From: Methanothrix sp.
GTDB lineage: Archaea; Halobacteriota; Methanosarcinia; Methanotrichales; Methanotrichaceae
Direction: 5' to 3'
Length of the DNA stretch: 32,291 bases
Assembly (NCBI GenBank): GCA_026394555.1
Contig: JAPKXZ010000042.1
Location: 1-32,291, forward strand
Every line of letters begins with the position of its first letter. The first letter of the stretch is position 1. The position numbers were made by a program, and so were the translations under genes. Shown here one piece after another: positions 21,451 through 32,029 of the stretch. The notes beneath the pieces were generated by a model that saw only the letters and a program-made list of their open reading frames with translations, made no database searches and was not told where the DNA came from.

Positions 21451-21861
21451 ATGGCAAGACTTGGTTTCGTAGTCTCGGAGTTCAATAGGGACATCACCTA
21501 TCAGATGGAGCTTTTGGGCAGAGAGCATGCCCGGTTCCTGGGAGCAGAGGTCGCGACTGTCATTTATGTTCCTGGCGTTTATGACATGCCCCTCGTGGTG
21601 AAGAAACTGCTTCGTCGCGAGGACATCGATGCGGTCGTGACAATCGGTTGCGTCATCCAGGGGGAGACTGCTCATGATGAAGTTGTGGTCTCGCAAGCGG
21701 CCCGAAAGCTGATGGATCTGTCATTAGAGTACGACAAGCCGGTAACTCTCGGCATTACCGGTCCCAAGATGTCCCGGCCTGATGCCCATAAAAGGGTGGA
21801 TTATGCCAAGCGGGCGGTCGAGGCAGCAGTCAAGCTATTGCAGAATCTAGGTGGTGTTTAG
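21451..21861 (+). CDS. ribH: 6,7-dimethyl-8-ribityllumazine synthase
   Basis: 136-residue lumazine synthase, the penultimate riboflavin enzyme, joining 5-amino-6-ribitylaminouracil and dihydroxybutanone phosphate. The start ATG 21451 gives [16 protein letters not shown] lies just upstream. [15 protein letters not shown] and [14 protein letters not shown] are the family's substrate-binding blocks, with catalytic His75 in TAHDEV. The same aminouracil substrate feeds CofH for F420, so the two cofactor pathways are both represented in the window. The 3' end overlaps the possible GTG start of the next gene and lies 4 bp before its ATG, so the pair is coupled. A fragment of a second copy survives at 28471-28510. 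Confidence 0.95.
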
Positions 21862-21865
21862 ACAA

Positions 21866-23002
21866 ATGGTATCTATGCGCATGGCCTCTATTCACGAATC
21901 AACCACTATGAAGATCTCGGCTATGGCCAAAAAGCTGGCTGCCGGCGGCCAGGACATCATCGACATGGGTGTGGGCGAGCCGGATTTCGATACCCCTAAG
22001 TATATTGTCGAGGCGGGCTGCAATTCCATCAGAAAGGGCGAGACGCGCTACGCTCCCACGGTAGGCATCCCCGAACTGCGTCGCATCATTGCCGATAAAC
22101 TGGTCCGGGAAAATTCTCTGCATGTGGCGGCGGATGATGTTGTCGTAACTCCCGGCGCCAAGATGGCCGTATTTGCCGCCATCCAGGCGCTGCTCCAGGA
22201 GGGGGATGAGTGCCTTCTCATCGGGCCTTCCTGGGTGAGCTATGAGCCCTGTGTGTCTTTTGCCGGGGCGAGCGTCTCCTGGGGAAAGGTGGATGAGAAT
22301 TTCATGCCAGTTGATCTGGCGGAGAGCATCAGCGCCCGGACGAGGCTGATCATCGTCAATTCTCCTTCCAATCCCACGGGATCTGTATTCGATCGCAAGA
22401 CCCTGGAGGAGATCAGGGATCTGGCTGTCGATCACAATCTGTCTGTCATTTCCGATGAGATTTATGAGAAGATAATCTATGATCACGAGCACATCAGCAT
22501 AGGCTCAATGCCGGGAATGGAGGAGAGGACTGTTACAATCAACGGCTTTTCCAAGAGCTACGCCATGACTGGCTGGCGGCTGGGTTATCTAGCCGGCCCC
22601 AAGGAGACTATGAAATGGGTGACCAGGCTGCTCTCTCACTCGGTCTCCCAGGCCACGACATTTGTGCAGCGGGCCGGAGTTGCAGCCATGCAGGGGCCGC
22701 AGGATGAGGTGGCTATGATGGCTGCAGAGTTTCGGGCCCGCCGGGATATGCTGGTCTCTGGCTTGCGAAATTTAGGGATACCCTGCAGCATGCCTGGGGG
22801 AGCCTTCTATGTCTTCCCGGATGTCTCCTCCGTGGGAGGAGGCGACGCCTTCACAGATAGGCTGCTCAAAGAGGCTCTGATCGCTGCCACTCCCGGCTCG
22901 GCCTTCGGGCCGGATGGGGCGAATTATGTCCGGCTCTCCTATGCCACGTCGCAGAGCCGGATCTGCCAGGCTCTGGAGAGGATTAAGAAGATCCTCTCCT
23001 GA
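21866..23002 (+). CDS. Class I PLP-dependent aminotransferase (aspartate aminotransferase-like)
   Basis: 378-residue fold-type I aminotransferase. GVGEPDFDTPKYI binds substrate, NSPSNPTGSVF contains the conserved Asn near PLP, ISDEIYEKIIYD carries the Asp/Tyr, and the PLP lysine is K230 in INGFSKSYAMTGWRLGY. FGPDGANYVRLSYA at the end has the carboxylate-binding arginine. The family includes archaeal aspartate aminotransferases, but related enzymes use alanine or aromatic amino acids, so the substrate is only probable. ATG 21866 is 4 bp after ribH stops; GTG 21851 is a possible earlier start. A 5'-truncated, about 85% identical paralogue lies at 28507-29355. Confidence 0.9.
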   Translation: MVSMRMASIHESTTMKISAMAKKLAAGGQDIIDMGVGEPDFDTPKYIVEAGCNSIRKGETRYAPTVGIPELRRIIADKLVRENSLHVAADDVVVTPGAKMAVFAAIQALLQEGDECLLIGPSWVSYEPCVSFAGASVSWGKVDENFMPVDLAESISARTRLIIVNSPSNPTGSVFDRKTLEEIRDLAVDHNLSVISDEIYEKIIYDHEHISIGSMPGMEERTVTINGFSKSYAMTGWRLGYLAGPKETMKWVTRLLSHSVSQATTFVQRAGVAAMQGPQDEVAMMAAEFRARRDMLVSGLRNLGIPCSMPGGAFYVFPDVSSVGGGDAFTDRLLKEALIAATPGSAFGPDGANYVRLSYATSQSRICQALERIKKILS

Positions 23003-23064
23003 TGGAGCCTTCATTTTTTTTAGCCGGGCGGCTGCGGTCGTGATCCGGTTCTTTCTGGCGCGAA

Positions 23065-23087
23065 TCTTCCGGCTGCCTGCCGGAAGA
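23065..23087 (+). terminator. Perfect hairpin after the aminotransferase gene
   Basis: TCTTCCGGC (23065-23073) and GCCGGAAGA (23079-23087) form a perfect 9-bp stem with a 5-nt loop, 62 bp after the stop. It may end or stabilise the ribH-aminotransferase mRNA. There is no T-run after it, so an intrinsic bacterial-type terminator is not certain. The rest of the 220-bp gap holds the AT-rich promoter region of the next gene and its ribosome binding site GGAGGGA (23213-23219). Confidence 0.5.
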
Positions 23088-23223
23088 ATAGCCTTCTGAA
23101 GATGCAGTTTTGTCGCTGCAAAAGCTCTTGATTCTCAACTATCGATAGTTCTATATCCATCAACCAACTTCCACTAAAACCGCTAAAATAGAATTTGGGT
23201 GATCCAATCGCTGGAGGGAGATT

Positions 23224-26200
23224 ATGGATTATAATAAAGATAAACTGGAGACCCTACTAAAAGGTCTATTGATTCTCATTCTGCTCGCAAACTGTGCCGA
23301 TGCCGCGACCCTGACCGTCGGCCCCGGCCAGACATACACCACCATCCAATCCGCCATCAATGCCGCCTCGCCTGGAGACACCATCCTGGTCCAGAGCGGG
23401 ACATACAACGAACACGTTGTGGTGAACAAGCAGCTAACGCTGCGGGGCGTCGGCTCGCCGGTGGTGGACGCCGGAGGCTCAGGCGACGCCATCACCATCA
23501 GTTACGACGGCTGCACCCTGGAAGGATTTGTGGCCAAAGGATCGGGGGCTTATTCCAGAGCCGGAATTAAGGCGACTTCCAGCGGCAACACCCTCTCGGG
23601 CAACACCGCCACCGGCAACTCCGGCAAAGGCATCTACCTCTCTTCCTCCAGCAGCAACACAGTCTCAGGCAACACCGCCACCGGCAACTCCTACGCCGGC
23701 ATCCTCCTCGAATCCTCCAGCAACGGCAACACTCTCTCGGGCAACACCGCCACCGGCAACTACATCGGCATCCTCCTCGAATCCTCCAGCAACGGCAACA
23801 CCCTCTCGGGCAACACCGCCACCGGCAACACCAACACCGGCATCCGCCTCGATTCCTCCAGCGGCAACACCCTCTCGGGCAACACCGCTACCGGCAACTC
23901 CGACGCCTTCAACCACATCGGCGTCGGCATCGTCCTCTCTTCCTCCAGCGGCAACACCCTCTCGGGCAACACCGTCACCGGCAACACCAAAATCGGCATC
24001 CTCATCACTTTCTCCAGCAACGGCAACACCATCTCAGGCAACACCGTCACCGGCAACGACATCGGCATCTACCTCTATTTCTCCAGCAACGGCAACACCA
24101 TCTCAGGCAACACCGTCACCGGCAACGACATCGGCATCTACCTCGATTCCTCCAGCAGCAATACCATCTACCTAAACACCCTCGACAATGCCCGGTCCAA
24201 CGGGGACAACCACTGGAATGCCACCACCACCCAGAGCTATGAGCACAACGGTCGCATCCTGATGGGCCTGCTGGGCAACATCTGGTCCGACTACACCGGC
24301 TTCGACTGCGACGGCATAGGCGATACGTCCTACCTGATTCCAGGGGGATCTGACAAGGACTATCACCCCATCGGCGGCGAAGAGTTCAGCCCCGACCTGG
24401 AGGCGCAGAAGAGCGCTGACAGGACGGAAGCCTATGTCGGCGACTGGATCAACTACAGAATCTGGGTGAACAACACCGGCAAAGTCAGCCTGACAGGCGT
24501 CCGGGCCGAGGACAACGTGACGGGGGCCATCTGGAATGTGGGAACTCTCTTGCCGGGCCAGAACTTCACCAACACCACCAGATACCAGGTGAAGCTGTCC
24601 GACCTGCCCGGACCGCTGACAAACGAGCTGCGGGCCAACGGGACGGCTGATCCCTGCGGCTTGGATATAAACGATTCAGCCACAGAGACTGTGAATATCC
24701 TCTACCGGCCAGATATCCAGGTTGACAAGAGCGCCAACCTGAGCGGCGGCTCGCCCTCCACCATCCTGGGCTTCAAGATCGAGGTCAATAACAGCGGGAA
24801 TGCCGATTTCGCTTCGGTCGATGTGGAAGACCTCCTGCCGCCTGGGCTTGATTATGTCTCCGATGACTCGGGAGTGATCCCCGGCCAGGCCGGGAGCAGA
24901 TACATCTGGAATCTTGGCCCTCTCAACTCCCGCGAGTCACTGAGCTTCAACCTCACCGCCCACATCAACGGCAAAGAGTTCGGGGATCTGGTCAACGCCG
25001 TCAATGCCACCGGCTATCCCGAATACGGCGATCCCGTCAACTCCAGCGCCACGGCAAGCGTTCGGGCGGAAGAGGCCAACATCACAGTCACCAAAGTCGC
25101 CAATCCGGCCTTCGGCTCGCCGGGCACGAATGTCACATTCAACCTGACGGTCACAAACTCAGGCAGCGCCCCGCTGCCTCATGTATCCGTCAGCGACCTT
25201 CTGCCCGCCGGTCTGAGCTACGTCTCATCCTCACCGGTTAGCACTCAGAGCGGCCAGCAGGTCGTCTGGCCGGACGTCGGGCCGCTGGCCACCGGCACGA
25301 GCAGCTCTCTTGAGATCGTGGCCCGCATCGACGGGCCAATTGTGGGCATGGAAACCCTGACCAACCGGGTGGATGTGCAGGCTGAGCCGGAGCACGGCGA
25401 GAACGTCACTGCCAGCGCCATTGCTGATGTCCTGGCCGAGGAGGCCAACATCACCGTCACCAAAGTCGCCGATCCGGCCTTCGGCTCGGCAGGCACGAAT
25501 GTCACATTCAACCTGACGGTCACAAACTCAGGCAGCGCCTCGCTGCCTCATGTCTCCGTCAGCGACCTTCTGCCCGCCGGGCTGAGCTACGTCTCATCCT
25601 CACCGGTTAGCACTCAGAGCGGCCAGCAGGTCGTCTGGCCGAACGTCGGGCCGCTGGCCACCGGCACGAGCAGCTCTCTTGAACTTGTGGCCCGCATCGA
25701 CGGGCCAATTGTGGGCATGGAAACCCTGACCAACCGGGTGGATGTGCAGTCTGAGCCGGAGCACGGCGAGAACGTCACTGCCAGTGCCATTGCCGACGTC
25801 CTGGCCGAGGAGGCCAACATCACCGTCACCAAGACCGCCGACCCTGCTTCCGGCCTGCCTGGAACTCCAATCAATTTCACATTGAATGTGACCAACAGCG
25901 GCAGAAGTCCTCTGCTCCATATCTCCGTCAGCGATCTTCTGCCCGCGGGCCTCGCCTTCGTCTCATCTTCATCCGGAGCTGCGATCAGCGGCCAGCAGGT
26001 CACCTGGCAGGACGCCGGCCCCCTGGCCCCTGGAGCCTCACGCCTCCTCTGGATCAGTGCCGGGATCGACGGCTCAGTCTACGGAACTCTTACCAACCGG
26101 GTTGACGTCACAGCCCGCCCTGAGAACGGAGATCCAATCAACGCCATAGCCACGGCAGATGTGCAGGCGAGTGAAAATCTGATCCTGGTGAAGACGGCAG

Positions 26201-28488
26201 ACAAGCCCGCAGCCCATAGAGGCGAAGACATCACCTACACCGTCACCTTCACCAATCCCAACTCGGATTCCGGATTCTGCTTCACCAACGTCACAGTCTG
26301 GGATGAGCTGCCGCGGGAAGTAGAGCTGGTCTCGGCCTCCCCCGAGACCTCATTCGCATCCAGCACTCTGACCTGGGACATAGGGACAATGTGCCCAGGT
26401 GACGAATTTGTGGCCACCATAGTCGTCCGCATCCCCTTAACCGACATCAACTACGACATGTCCCAGGGCGTCACCGGCAAGGGCTTCGTCAACGTCCACA
26501 ACGACTACGACACCCACCAGGGCCCCGAGTCGATAACCAACTGCGCCTACGCCAAGGCCGACCTGATCGAGACGCTAAAAAGCTGCGCCTCGACCAGGAT
26601 AGTCGATCCTGGAACGGAACTTAAGCGGCGGGAGTTTGGCAGCGGCACATACGATAGCGAAGAGCTGCTGCGCATGCGCACGGAGAACAAGTCTATAAAA
26701 TCAGCGACCAGCCTCTCAGCCGTCCACCAGCCTACCTCATTCGCTCTGCCCCAGAACCGGTCCATAGACTACGGCACGAAGTGGACAGAGAAGTCCAAGG
26801 GCATCAACACCATAACCGGCGCCACGATGAACGAGGAGTACACATTCGCCAGCAAGATCGACAAAGAGAGATCCATAGAACTGGACAAGAACGGCTCGAC
26901 TATGAAAACCGAGGTCGAGTTCGAAGGCACCGGCCACATTGGAGTGCTCAAGAAGGCGGATCCCGACTCCCATCCGAAGGTCCGGCCGATCTACGAGGCC
27001 GGCGAGGACTACGTCGGCAGCTTCCATGTCTATGAGATGGTCGATGAGTACGGCCAGGGCGTCAGCTCGAACAAATCAGTCGCAGGCTACGGCTACGTGG
27101 CAGTCGACAAAAGGGTACGCGACAGCCAGCGCACTTACGAGTCAGGCACCGGCTCCTACCAGAGCGATGAGATCATCGATACTCCGTCCAACTACATAGC
27201 CAAGGACATAAAACTGGTGCACGGGCCCACCGGATACAGCTACACACCAAGATTTGGCGTCAGCCAGAACATGTTATGGAGCGAAGGCATGTGGTCGAAG
27301 AGCGGCTACCTGGCTGGCGGTGACATATTCAAGGATAGCAGCAACTGCGGCCTGCCTGTTATAAAAACGGACAACAGCTCGCCTCCAGCCTCCTACATCA
27401 GCGAGAGGTTCTCTTCGCTGGATAGCCTGAAGAAAGAGACCATTGCCTCCGGCCTCAACGAGATGAAGACCAACGCCAGCTTCAGCGGCATGGCCGACTT
27501 CAAAGTAAAATCAAGAGGCAATAACCGGACTTCCAGGGTCGATAACGAGGAGCGCTATGTAGGCCAATATGACATCACCAGGAAGGTGCTTCTCACCGGC
27601 GTGTCCAGATACGACCGGCCTCACATAACTGTGAAGAAGGAAGGCAACATGACCACCAGGTGGTTCAACAAGACCAATGCCCAGGTTGCCAAGTACGTCA
27701 TAACCATAACCAATGACGGCAACGTGGCTCTAGCTCCCATAAATGTCCGGGACATTTTCCCGCCGGGCACGGAGTACATAGGCTCGTCCATCCGGCCGGC
27801 CAGCCTCTCCCGGACTGATGTCAATTGGACTTTAGTTCATATCGGCATAGGAAACACCATTAAGATCGAGCTGGAGTTGAACTTGACCGAGTACGCGCCC
27901 GGCAACATCGTCAACCGCGTCATGGTTTGCGGCATGAATGGAGACGCCTGCGTATCCGGAGCGGCTTATGCGGCATTGGAATCCGCAGAGCTGCCCTGCT
28001 GCCTGGCCGAGGTTGGACTGGACAAGAGGGCAGTGCTGGATGCCACCGATCCCACGCTGGTCCATTTCACCATCCAAGTGCGCAATAATGCCGACAGCAC
28101 CCTGGCCGCCACGCTGAACGACACGCTGCCAGCCGGCCTGACATTCCTGAGCGCCTCAGCCGAGCCGAGCCGCCAGGAGGGCCCGTTCCTGCAATGGATT
28201 GTTCCCGACCTGAAGCCAGGCGGCGCCGCAACTATCGAATACCAGGCCCGGGCAACCAGGGATGGCAGTTATGTCAACTCTGTGCATCTGGATGCAACTG
28301 CCGTGGATGGGACAGGTTACGACACCGCCGATGCCTCAGCCAGAGTTGAGGTGCGAAGCACCGGTGTGGCGCCCAGGACGACCAGGTACGGGGGCTGGCA
28401 GCCGCCGGAATGGAACATCACAACGCCCGATCAGGGAATAACTGTCGAGTTGAGCCCGGACGAGGATACGGGGGGAGACGGCTCATGA
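23224..28488 (+). CDS. Giant surface protein: NosD-like beta-helix plus DUF11 repeats
   Basis: 1754 residues. A signal peptide (LLKGLLILILLANCADA) precedes a right-handed beta-helix (about 30-330) made of repeated SGNTATGN units. The NosD-type close is at about 318-385 (NIWSDYTGFDCDG). DUF11 Ig-like domains follow at about 391-490, 496-615, 617-739, 740-862, 863-982 and 986-1110. An unusual module rich in GSGTY/EGTGH/SGMAD motifs occupies about 1118-1466, and two more DUF11 domains lie at about 1467-1590 and 1595-1710. Many NxS/T sites suit glycosylation. ATG 23224 has GGAGGGA 4-11 nt upstream. The tail has no transmembrane anchor or sorting signal, and the last residues (GGDGS) are encoded by a relic of ribH read out of frame, so the natural C-terminus has probably been lost. 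An extracellular adhesive or sheath role is inference. Confidence 0.9.
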   Translation: MDYNKDKLETLLKGLLILILLANCADAATLTVGPGQTYTTIQSAINAASPGDTILVQSGTYNEHVVVNKQLTLRGVGSPVVDAGGSGDAITISYDGCTLEGFVAKGSGAYSRAGIKATSSGNTLSGNTATGNSGKGIYLSSSSSNTVSGNTATGNSYAGILLESSSNGNTLSGNTATGNYIGILLESSSNGNTLSGNTATGNTNTGIRLDSSSGNTLSGNTATGNSDAFNHIGVGIVLSSSSGNTLSGNTVTGNTKIGILITFSSNGNTISGNTVTGNDIGIYLYFSSNGNTISGNTVTGNDIGIYLDSSSSNTIYLNTLDNARSNGDNHWNATTTQSYEHNGRILMGLLGNIWSDYTGFDCDGIGDTSYLIPGGSDKDYHPIGGEEFSPDLEAQKSADRTEAYVGDWINYRIWVNNTGKVSLTGVRAEDNVTGAIWNVGTLLPGQNFTNTTRYQVKLSDLPGPLTNELRANGTADPCGLDINDSATETVNILYRPDIQVDKSANLSGGSPSTILGFKIEVNNSGNADFASVDVEDLLPPGLDYVSDDSGVIPGQAGSRYIWNLGPLNSRESLSFNLTAHINGKEFGDLVNAVNATGYPEYGDPVNSSATASVRAEEANITVTKVANPAFGSPGTNVTFNLTVTNSGSAPLPHVSVSDLLPAGLSYVSSSPVSTQSGQQVVWPDVGPLATGTSSSLEIVARIDGPIVGMETLTNRVDVQAEPEHGENVTASAIADVLAEEANITVTKVADPAFGSAGTNVTFNLTVTNSGSASLPHVSVSDLLPAGLSYVSSSPVSTQSGQQVVWPNVGPLATGTSSSLELVARIDGPIVGMETLTNRVDVQSEPEHGENVTASAIADVLAEEANITVTKTADPASGLPGTPINFTLNVTNSGRSPLLHISVSDLLPAGLAFVSSSSGAAISGQQVTWQDAGPLAPGASRLLWISAGIDGSVYGTLTNRVDVTARPENGDPINAIATADVQASENLILVKTADKPAAHRGEDITYTVTFTNPNSDSGFCFTNVTVWDELPREVELVSASPETSFASSTLTWDIGTMCPGDEFVATIVVRIPLTDINYDMSQGVTGKGFVNVHNDYDTHQGPESITNCAYAKADLIETLKSCASTRIVDPGTELKRREFGSGTYDSEELLRMRTENKSIKSATSLSAVHQPTSFALPQNRSIDYGTKWTEKSKGINTITGATMNEEYTFASKIDKERSIELDKNGSTMKTEVEFEGTGHIGVLKKADPDSHPKVRPIYEAGEDYVGSFHVYEMVDEYGQGVSSNKSVAGYGYVAVDKRVRDSQRTYESGTGSYQSDEIIDTPSNYIAKDIKLVHGPTGYSYTPRFGVSQNMLWSEGMWSKSGYLAGGDIFKDSSNCGLPVIKTDNSSPPASYISERFSSLDSLKKETIASGLNEMKTNASFSGMADFKVKSRGNNRTSRVDNEERYVGQYDITRKVLLTGVSRYDRPHITVKKEGNMTTRWFNKTNAQVAKYVITITNDGNVALAPINVRDIFPPGTEYIGSSIRPASLSRTDVNWTLVHIGIGNTIKIELELNLTEYAPGNIVNRVMVCGMNGDACVSGAAYAALESAELPCCLAEVGLDKRAVLDATDPTLVHFTIQVRNNADSTLAATLNDTLPAGLTFLSASAEPSRQEGPFLQWIVPDLKPGGAATIEYQARATRDGSYVNSVHLDATAVDGTGYDTADASARVEVRSTGVAPRTTRYGGWQPPEWNITTPDQGITVELSPDEDTGGDGS
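23583..24160 (+). repeat. Short tandem repeats encoding the beta-helix coils
   Basis: About nine imperfect copies of a GC-rich unit reading GGCAACACCCTCTCGGGCAA plus CACCGCCACCGGCAAC, with spacers of 24-48 bp that encode the remaining turn (IGILLESSSN and the like). Each unit codes for SGNTATGN. The high similarity between units means copy number could change by slippage or recombination. The coding repeat creates long open frames in other phases, which are not genes. Confidence 0.85.
25072..26178 (+). repeat. Three tandem 369-bp DUF11 units
   Basis: Units begin with GAGGCCAACATCAC at 25072, 25441 and 25810, exactly 369 bp (123 codons) apart. The first two are nearly identical in DNA; the third keeps the ends but has diverged in the middle. 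This shows recent in-frame duplication of a whole domain. The same kind of unit, about 360 bp, occurs in the gene at 30.4-32.3 kb. Confidence 0.9.
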
Positions 28489-28510
28489 TGAGATCGTAGT
28501 CTCCCAGGCG
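28471..28510 (+). pseudogene. ribH: Remnant of a second ribH gene
   Basis: Bases 28471-28510 align without gaps to ribH 21660-21699. In the ribH frame they read GETAHDEIVVSQA against [13 protein letters not shown] of the intact gene. Most differences are third-codon changes (GAA/GAG, GTG/GTA, TCG/TCC, CAA/CAG), showing that this copy was under selection before being destroyed. It is joined directly to aminotransferase sequence through GGCG at 28507-28510. Confidence 0.85.
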
Positions 28511-29355
28511 CCAAGATGGCTGTATTTGCCGCTATCCAGGCGCTCCTCCAGGAGGGCGATGAGTGCGCTCTCATTGGGCCTTCCTGGGTGAGCTACGAGC
28601 CCTGTGTGGCCTTTGCCGGAGGCAGCGTCGCCTGGGGAAAAGTGGATAGTAATTTTATGCCGCAAAACATCGCGGAAACTATCAATTCCAAGACGCGGCT
28701 TATCATTGTCAACTCTCCCTCCAATCCCACCGGATCTGTATTCGACAGACAGGTGCTGGAGGAGATTCGTGATCTGGCTGTGGATCACAACCTGTCTGTC
28801 ATTTCCGACGAAATTTATGAGAAGATAATTTATGATCATGAGCACATCAGCATAGGTTCCATGCCGGGAATGGAGGACAGAACCGTGACCATAAACGGTT
28901 TCTCCAAAGCTTATTCCATGACCGGATGGCGTCTGGGGTATCTTACCGGCCCCCAAGAGATCATGAAATGGGTGACCAGGCTTCTCTCTCACTCCGTATC
29001 CCAGGCTACCACCTTTGTGCAGCGGGCCGGTGTGGCGGCAATGCAAGCGCCGCAAGATGAGATTGCATCCATGGTGACCGAGTTTCAGGCGCGTCGCGAT
29101 TTGCTGGTCAATGGCCTGAAGGATTTAGGAATACCCTGCAGCTTGCCTGGAGGCGCTTTCTACGTCTTCCCCGACGTATCCGAATTTGGCGGAGGGGACG
29201 CATTTACCGATAAGCTGCTTAAAGATGCTCTCATCGCGGCCACGCCCGGATCGGCCTTCGGGCCGGGCGGCGTAAATTATATCCGGCTCTCCTATGCTAC
29301 ATCCCAGAGTCGAATTAAACAGGCGCTGGAAAGGATAGGGAGGATTGCAAGATAG
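28507..29355 (+). pseudogene. 5'-truncated second aminotransferase gene
   Basis: From GAKMAVFAAIQ onward this frame matches the intact aminotransferase at 21866-23002. Over the 279 residues from ATG 28516 I counted about 43 differences, so roughly 85% identity. The PLP lysine (K131 of the fragment, INGFSKAYSMTGW), the NPSNPTG block and the C-terminal arginine region are intact. The first ~90-95 residues, including the substrate-binding EPDFDTP loop, are missing. They were lost in a deletion that fused it to a ribH relic. No ribosome binding site precedes ATG 28516. A class I aminotransferase lacking this part is very unlikely to work, so I call it a pseudogene, although the remaining frame is uninterrupted. 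Confidence 0.8.
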
Positions 29356-30438: not shown

Positions 30439-31924
30439 AGCTTCGAAGACGCTTTCTCTAGGATTTTCCGGCAGCCTGACGGTAAATAAAGATCCAAACG
30501 TCGCTGAGCAGACAGTTGGATTTCCTATTTCTTACGATATCAACGTAACAAATGTAAATGGTTTTACGGTTAAAAATATAGCTGCTAAGGACGTGATCTA
30601 CCACCCGACTGCTCATACCGTAGTCGTTAACCTTGACAAGACAACTCTCCTTCCCGGGGAAGTGGCTAGTGGCACTGTAGTCGTATACAACATCGTACAG
30701 GAGGATATCCAGGGTCCACCTGTGGGCAAGATTGGGGCAGGGCTTCCCGTTGTAACCGACTATGCCAGCGCCGTGGGATATCCATCATGGGAAAACCCTG
30801 TAACTGGTGAAACCGTCTCTGGGATCAATACCAAGACCGTTGGCATTCTTTATGAAACCAATCAGGAATCGAAGAAGACCGCCAGCCCAGAGGAGGGTGC
30901 CCCTCATTCTCAAACCACATTTCACATCACCGTCAGCAATCCCGGCAATGTGCTGCTAAACAGGACGGAGCTTTGGGATCAGTTGCCTGCAGGCTTAAGT
31001 TTTGTCTCTGCGACCCCTCCAGAGACATCCGTAAGCACCTCCGGCAGCATTACTACCATCTACTGGACCAACCTTTCCCAGTCATTTAATGCGGTACTTA
31101 ATCCGGGAGATCATTTTGATGCCGATGTCGTTGCCTCATTCAATGGGGACAAATACGGCAAGCTCACAAACCTCGTGACCGACATTGGGTATAACTTGCG
31201 CAATGAGAGTATAACAAATACCACTGAAAAAGATGTCACTGCCAGAAAGCAGAACATCGTCGTGGTCAAGACGCCCGATATTTCCTCTGGTTCCATCGGC
31301 GCGGTTGTAAACTTCACTTTGAATGTTACCAATACCGGAAACATAAGCCTCACCAATGTCTTTGTGAGCGACCTTCTGCCCGCTGGCCTGACCTACGACA
31401 GCTCCTCGACCGGCGGCAGCAACGTCGGCCAGACCGTCTCCTGGTCCGATATCGGTCCTCTGGCAGTTGCCGCCAAGAAATCGCTCTGGATCAAAGGGCG
31501 CATAGACGGCAGCGCCTTTGGCGATCTGATCAACAATGTGGATGTGGAAGGCAAACCCGTATATGGTGACAATGTCACGAACAGCACTACAGCTACTGTT
31601 AAAGCCGAGAAAGCCAATATCGAAGTTACAAAGACTGCTCTACCCAAGACCGGCTCGCTTGGAACTCTGGTCAACTTCACCCTGAATGTCACCAACAATG
31701 GCGTCGCCGATCTACCGCACGTCTTTGTGAGCGACCTTCTTCCCACCGGCCTTACCTTTGACAGCTCCTCGACCGGCGGCAGCAACGTCGGCCAGACCGT
31801 CTCCTGGTCTGATATCGGTCCTCTGGCAGCAGCCGCTAAGAAATCACTCTGGATCAAAGCCAAAATCGATGGCTCAGTCTACGGCACTCTGACGAACAAT
31901 TTGAATGTAGCAGGTAAGGTCTGA
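30383..31924 (+). pseudogene. DUF11 surface protein, middle part between two frame breaks
   Basis: This frame has no credible start of its own: the first ~20 codons (from ATG 30383) are the out-of-frame copy of the preceding exported domain. It carries an N-terminal Ig-like unit (NVAEQTVGFPISYDINV), a second (TFHITVSNPGNVLLNRTELW) and two typical DUF11 units (VVNFTLNVTNTGNISLTNVF, FVSDLLPAGLTYDSSST; then VNFTLNVTNNGVADLPHVFV). The two copies of the segment coding for GLTYDSSSTGGSNVGQTVSW are 360 bp apart and almost identical in DNA. It ends at TGA 31922-31924, created by a 112-bp tandem duplication that shifts the frame. Without the two breaks the gene would run past the window end. Confidence 0.75.
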
Positions 31925-32029
31925 TATCGGTCCTCTGGCAGCAGCCGCTAAGAAATCACTCTGGATCAAAGCCAAAATCGATGGCTCAGTCTACGGCACT
32001 CTGACGAACAATTTGAATGTAGCAGGTAA
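31806..32029 (+). repeat. Exact 112-bp tandem duplication
   Basis: Bases 31806-31917 are repeated without any difference at 31918-32029 (both start GGTCTGATATCGG or its shifted copy and end GCAGGTAA). The unit of 112 bp is not a multiple of three, so the duplication shifts the frame and makes the TGA at 31922. Removing one copy restores one continuous DUF11 frame. Confidence 0.9.

Follow-up and report, generated by a model that had tools for sequence, protein, structure and literature searches.

A scar behind a giant surface-protein gene in Methanothrix is probably one seam of an insertion of congeneric DNA

Features of the locus

We analyzed a whole contig (C61; 32,291 nucleotides, hereafter the window) from a 75-contig draft genome of a Methanothrix species. 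The draft is 96% complete with an estimated contamination of 0.71%, and its best named neighbors are 'uncultured Methanosarcinales' (87%), Candidatus Methanocrinis natronophilus (72%) and Methanothrix sp. (68%). The genes and gene pieces described below between 21451 and 29355 lie on the + strand. An intact ribH, which encodes 6,7-dimethyl-8-ribityllumazine synthase, occupies 21451-21861 (TIGR00114, 159 bits). It is the sole copy in the genome, and synteny places it in the resident lineage. Its protein is 98% identical to that of the sister genome G021, and the genes upstream encode proteins that are 91-98% identical to their G021 counterparts. An intact class I/II aminotransferase gene (AT) follows at 21866-23002. 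AT is single-copy next to ribH in every same-genus genome in which it was found, and 17 sampled relatives have a single ribH-AT pair; two close AT copies occur in the window only. We found no further close copy of ribH or AT elsewhere in this genome.

Downstream of AT lies a giant gene for a secreted surface protein (23224-28468) with a NosD beta-helix and eight DUF11 repeats (Pfam PF05048 and PF01345). Its open reading frame continues to 28488, where the protein ends in ...LSPDEDTGGDGS (TGGDGS) before a TGA stop codon at 28486-28488. A previous sequence-only reading of this DNA had proposed that the frame runs into ribH sequence, takes GGDGS from it out of the ribH frame, and has lost its original C-terminus. 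The first two points hold, and no relative examined has a GGDGS end that is free of ribH sequence. The third holds only in part. Homologs end in LSPDED-LAE, LSPDED-LV, LSPEED-VVE, LSPEED-VVQ or LSPDED-LI, each followed directly by the stop codon, and these ends rule out the loss of a real C-terminal domain. The gene in the window is complete through LSPDED, so that, judged against its homologs, only 2-4 terminal residues and the stop appear to have been lost. The terminator of the gene was presumably lost too.

Contig C46 of this genome carries the nearest relative of the surface gene, a paralog with 83% protein identity (support of 100/98 in the tree). G021 has neither gene, and its best match is ~49% identical. 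The paralog itself forms a clean 5.9-kb presence/absence insertion (locus L085, 3494-9404). The corresponding site is empty in G021, with flanks that are 90-95% identical and only 59 nt between them. Such surface genes thus appear to come and go as units. In genome G019, a surface gene of the same subfamily lies ~1.2 kb past AT, which makes a donor with linked AT and surface genes plausible. In several relatives (loci L040, L043, L048 and L050), a gene for a small secreted protein and one for a giant surface protein come directly after ribH-AT. There is little conservation between genomes downstream of AT at these loci, which marks the region as a hotspot of surface-gene turnover. Near the end of our contig, another DUF11 surface gene contains two identical 112-nt tandem copies (31806-32029). 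Their length is not a multiple of three, and the pair may be an assembly artifact or a recent frameshifting duplication.

The surface gene meets a scrap of ribH (28466-28510, about residues 69-83). As the sequence-only reading had recognized, 28471-28510 aligns gap-free to ribH 21660-21699. The two are identical at 33 of 40 positions (blastn E ~1e-6), compared with 23/40 on the same strand and 22/40 on the opposite strand for the runner-up sites in the whole window. The upstream limit of the match lies slightly beyond 28471, at ~28466. Translated in the ribH frame, the scrap reads IRGETAHDEIVVSQA, and its counterpart in intact ribH is 15 residues long. At the join between surface gene and scrap there is a short GGAT or GG.GGAG similarity. 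The other end of the scrap meets AT sequence at a GGCG microhomology (28507-28510), also as previously described.

From 28507 to 29355 runs a relic of AT without its first ~100 codons. It is a pseudogene whose frame is open (ATG at 28516), with no stop in the 276 codons compared. The surface frame and the relic frame are the same, and the ribH frame differs from them; two adjacent TGA codons (28486-28491), both from the ribH scrap, divide the two open frames. The relic had been described as about 85% identical to the intact AT. This figure fits the proteins (85%), whereas DNA identity is 80.6% over 859 bp. Activity of the relic product is unlikely, since the missing codons correspond to a part that is contained in the aligned solved aspartate aminotransferases.

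Two lineages in AT, its relic and the ribH scrap

Sliding DNA identity to G021 is 95-100% across ribH and 85-92% in the first third of the intact AT, then drops to 73-85% past ~22240, where the gene is closest to G003/G014. In a scan for a single breakpoint, the change falls at 22237/22243 (permutation P = 0.0013), and the range by eye is 22150-22243. Left of the breakpoint, 55/62 informative sites are resident-like (clade A). To its right, only 35/62 favor G003/G014, which indicates that the donor was not close to these two genomes. In the maximum-likelihood (ML) tree, the 3' part groups with G003 and G014 (support 99/99), and an AU test rejects its placement within the G021/G010/relic group (P = 0.00056). 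For the 5' part, grouping with G003/G014 is disfavored at P = 0.118, a value above the 5% rejection level. These data suggest that the intact AT is a chimera of a native 5' part and a foreign 3' part. By site scan and sliding identity, 21866-22150 looks resident and G021/G010-like, while 22244-23002, the 3' two-thirds, looks like a foreign allele related to those of G003/G014. The interval between them, 22151-22243, would hold a homologous crossover from native to foreign sequence; the AT alleles match exactly over 20 nt at most (22223-22242).

The relic has the opposite affinity. Its first 400 nt are 93-96% identical to G021 DNA, it groups with G021 in the ML tree (83/88), and an AU test rejects the two AT copies of the window as sisters (P = 0.00016). 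By these comparisons, we take the relic to be the resident-lineage allele of AT. It starts at the equivalent of 22151, the first position of the crossover interval. The resident AT is therefore nearly complete and is split in two, its halves separated by the foreign 3' part of AT, the surface gene and the ribH scrap. A single insertion accounts for this, and no separate deletion is needed. The mosaic structure, the presence of two lineages and the positions of the joins are observed.

The relic also lacks decay. On its branch we counted 25 synonymous and 10 nonsynonymous changes, and the functional G021 gene has 27 and 17. Nonsynonymous changes are not in excess, which rules out a relic long under relaxed selection. 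Together with the lack of stops, this points to a displacement that would be recent relative to the G021 split, or to a fragment that may still be in use; beyond the lack of decay itself we found no sign of such use. Apart from DUF11 repeats, the DNA from 29356 on has no alignable counterpart behind AT in sister genomes, and so it is of no help in proving that the relic sits in its original place.

We compared the ribH scrap with the resident ribH and with the alleles of related genomes. Over 41 positions, it matches G003 at 37, the resident ribH at 33 and G021 at 32. At four sites the resident clade (G021, G010, G024, G018 and the window) shares one base, and the scrap has the G003 base at 4/4. 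From these ~41 nt and four diagnostic sites, the scrap looks foreign. Since it carries the diagnostic bases of the other clade, it is not the front of the relic's own operon. The sequence-only reading had concluded that a second ribH-AT pair once stood here and that the block arose by duplication. With a relic of resident type, a scrap of another clade, an intact AT that looks chimeric, and AT copies that are not sisters, neither conclusion is upheld, and no second pair need have existed.

Elsewhere in the genus, a decayed AT 3' end of 66-70 nt lies just past the intact AT of G021 (locus L039 on G021:C27, 18601-18670). It is 86% identical to G021's own AT and closest to that of G010 (62/70), and is possibly an older, independent displacement. 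A further candidate relic, G017:C187, was rejected as a normal gene broken by N gaps.

Probable origin of the scar

The scar is probably the right-hand seam of a ~6.3-kb insertion of congeneric DNA in the resident AT. Homologous pairing inside AT, with a crossover at ~22150-22243, would have let in DNA from a related congeneric species. The incoming stretch would have carried the 3' two-thirds of the donor AT and probably the surface gene. Its other end, without homology, would have been closed by short matches: the end of the surface gene was presumably joined to a ~41-45-nt scrap of donor ribH, and GGCG presumably linked the scrap in turn to the resident AT at its point of opening. Such a process would leave ribH followed by an AT that is complete though chimeric. 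The surface gene would gain a foreign tail of six residues, and the 3' end of the resident AT would become a pseudogene, recent in origin. The scrap suggests a template switch or the capture of a second fragment. We infer a single event, its direction, the passage of the surface gene along with the donor AT, and a scrap made by template switching or end joining. Against this model, the donor arrangement is present in no sampled genome: homology to G003/G014 stops at the AT 3' end, and a DNA search with 22950-23800 found no such arrangement in relatives. In addition, the closest relative of the surface gene is a paralog in the same genome, so this gene may not be foreign.

If the incoming DNA already carried a foreign AT, the surface gene and a second ribH, owing to an earlier duplication or rearrangement on the donor side, then the join of surface gene to ribH would be imported and only the GGCG join would be local. 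The shared lineage affinity of the scrap and the AT 3' part would follow, and surface genes do lie downstream of AT in relatives. However, a surface gene joined to ribH is absent from the sampled genomes, and the cut in the surface gene falls within its last 2-4 codons and has the look of a break in its own right. We consider an imported join unlikely.

The main risk to the insertion reading is the assembly, as a metagenome contig could mix two congeneric species. The draft state of the genome, the fact that relatives can co-occur, and the near-identical repeats in which the contig ends would all be compatible with such a mixture. However, the right-hand join shares 4 nt only and lies within ~45 nt of another join, and the 20-nt exact match at the left crossover is shorter than usual assembly overlaps. 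Overlaps this short at either seam speak against a chimeric contig. The left flank and the relic are both of the resident lineage, and estimated contamination is low. A search of the genome collection, in which near records may be missing, showed no independent assembly of this genome. An assembly chimera is unlikely.

We find it very unlikely that a tandem duplication of ribH-AT came to flank the surface gene and that a later deletion removed the 3' part of the second ribH together with the 5' part of the second AT. Sequences of ribH and of AT do each occur twice, in the same order, and there is microhomology at the join. However, the result of the AU test on the two AT copies, the different lineages indicated by scrap and relic, and the single pair in the 17 sampled relatives contradict this history, which would also require a later replacement of the 3' part of the first AT. 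It is highly improbable that a mobile element integrated site-specifically in AT and rebuilt the 3' end of the gene, with the displaced end as the other attachment site. Such an element would fit a gene restored with a foreign 3' end, its old end at the far border and the 14 nt that are identical at both borders of the inserted segment. However, the only annotated genes of the segment are AT and the surface gene, with no integrase or mobility gene, the ribH scrap is left unexplained, other genomes have no comparable element at the site, and no structured RNAs or tRNAs were found as integration targets. A search for the exact junction in viral contigs gave no match.

On the insertion reading, the locus appears to be a clear though unremarkable record of DNA passed between related species, and not a deleted twin operon. 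It offers a readable snapshot of a methanogenic archaeon gaining a giant surface gene while an enzyme gene is kept intact, with homology anchoring one end and microhomology closing the other. The locus suggests that Methanothrix-like archaea exchange DNA with congeners in this way; we found no earlier report of it for the genus in the open-access literature. What looks like the relic of a duplicated operon can be a resident allele that was displaced, and this alters the reading of such scars. The AT 3' end could even be a recurrent entry point in the genus, where the conserved AT serves as homologous anchor, its 3' end is replaced, surface genes are delivered and old ends are left behind. The AT scrap in G021 and the giant surface genes after AT in several relatives prompt this idea, which is tentative and, in our estimate, unlikely.

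Comparison with known systems

Some integrating elements supply the gene that they enter with a new 3' end, as phage 21 does in icd. The locus described here is similar in that a foreign 3' end restores the gene and the native end lies at the far border. Unlike in those elements, there is no integrase and no attachment-site symmetry, and the restored part is long (~760 nt) and divergent.

The event resembles homology-facilitated illegitimate recombination (HFIR), described in Acinetobacter baylyi, Streptococcus pneumoniae and Pseudomonas stutzeri, for which microhomologies of 3-10 bp are reported and whose products are usually missing a stretch of recipient DNA similar in size to the insert (PMC3240628). 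RecA-dependent uptake of linear DNA is a further feature of HFIR. As in HFIR, one border is homologous (~22150-22243, in alignable AT), the other has the 4-nt microhomology GGCG (28507-28510), and DNA without homology in the recipient is delivered. Unlike in HFIR, almost no recipient DNA was lost, a deletion being a usual but not strictly required feature, and a ~41-nt scrap lies at the join. Our case also comes from an archaeon and is inferred from a draft genome only. We therefore liken its working to HFIR without claiming proven membership. In the archaea Haloferax and Sulfolobus, end joining based on microhomology has been seen, with enzymes that are unknown (PMC8708640).

A similar displacement of 3' ends has been proposed for Vibrio T6SS effector-immunity arrays and for Rhs loci, and HFIR is put forward there too (PMC5361080 and references therein). 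The displaced parts there are immunity genes or toxin tips and are likely beneficial, whereas here a fragment of a housekeeping enzyme, with no evident use, was displaced. In both, the conserved 5' part is retained, a foreign 3' part comes in, and the old 3' end is orphaned downstream.
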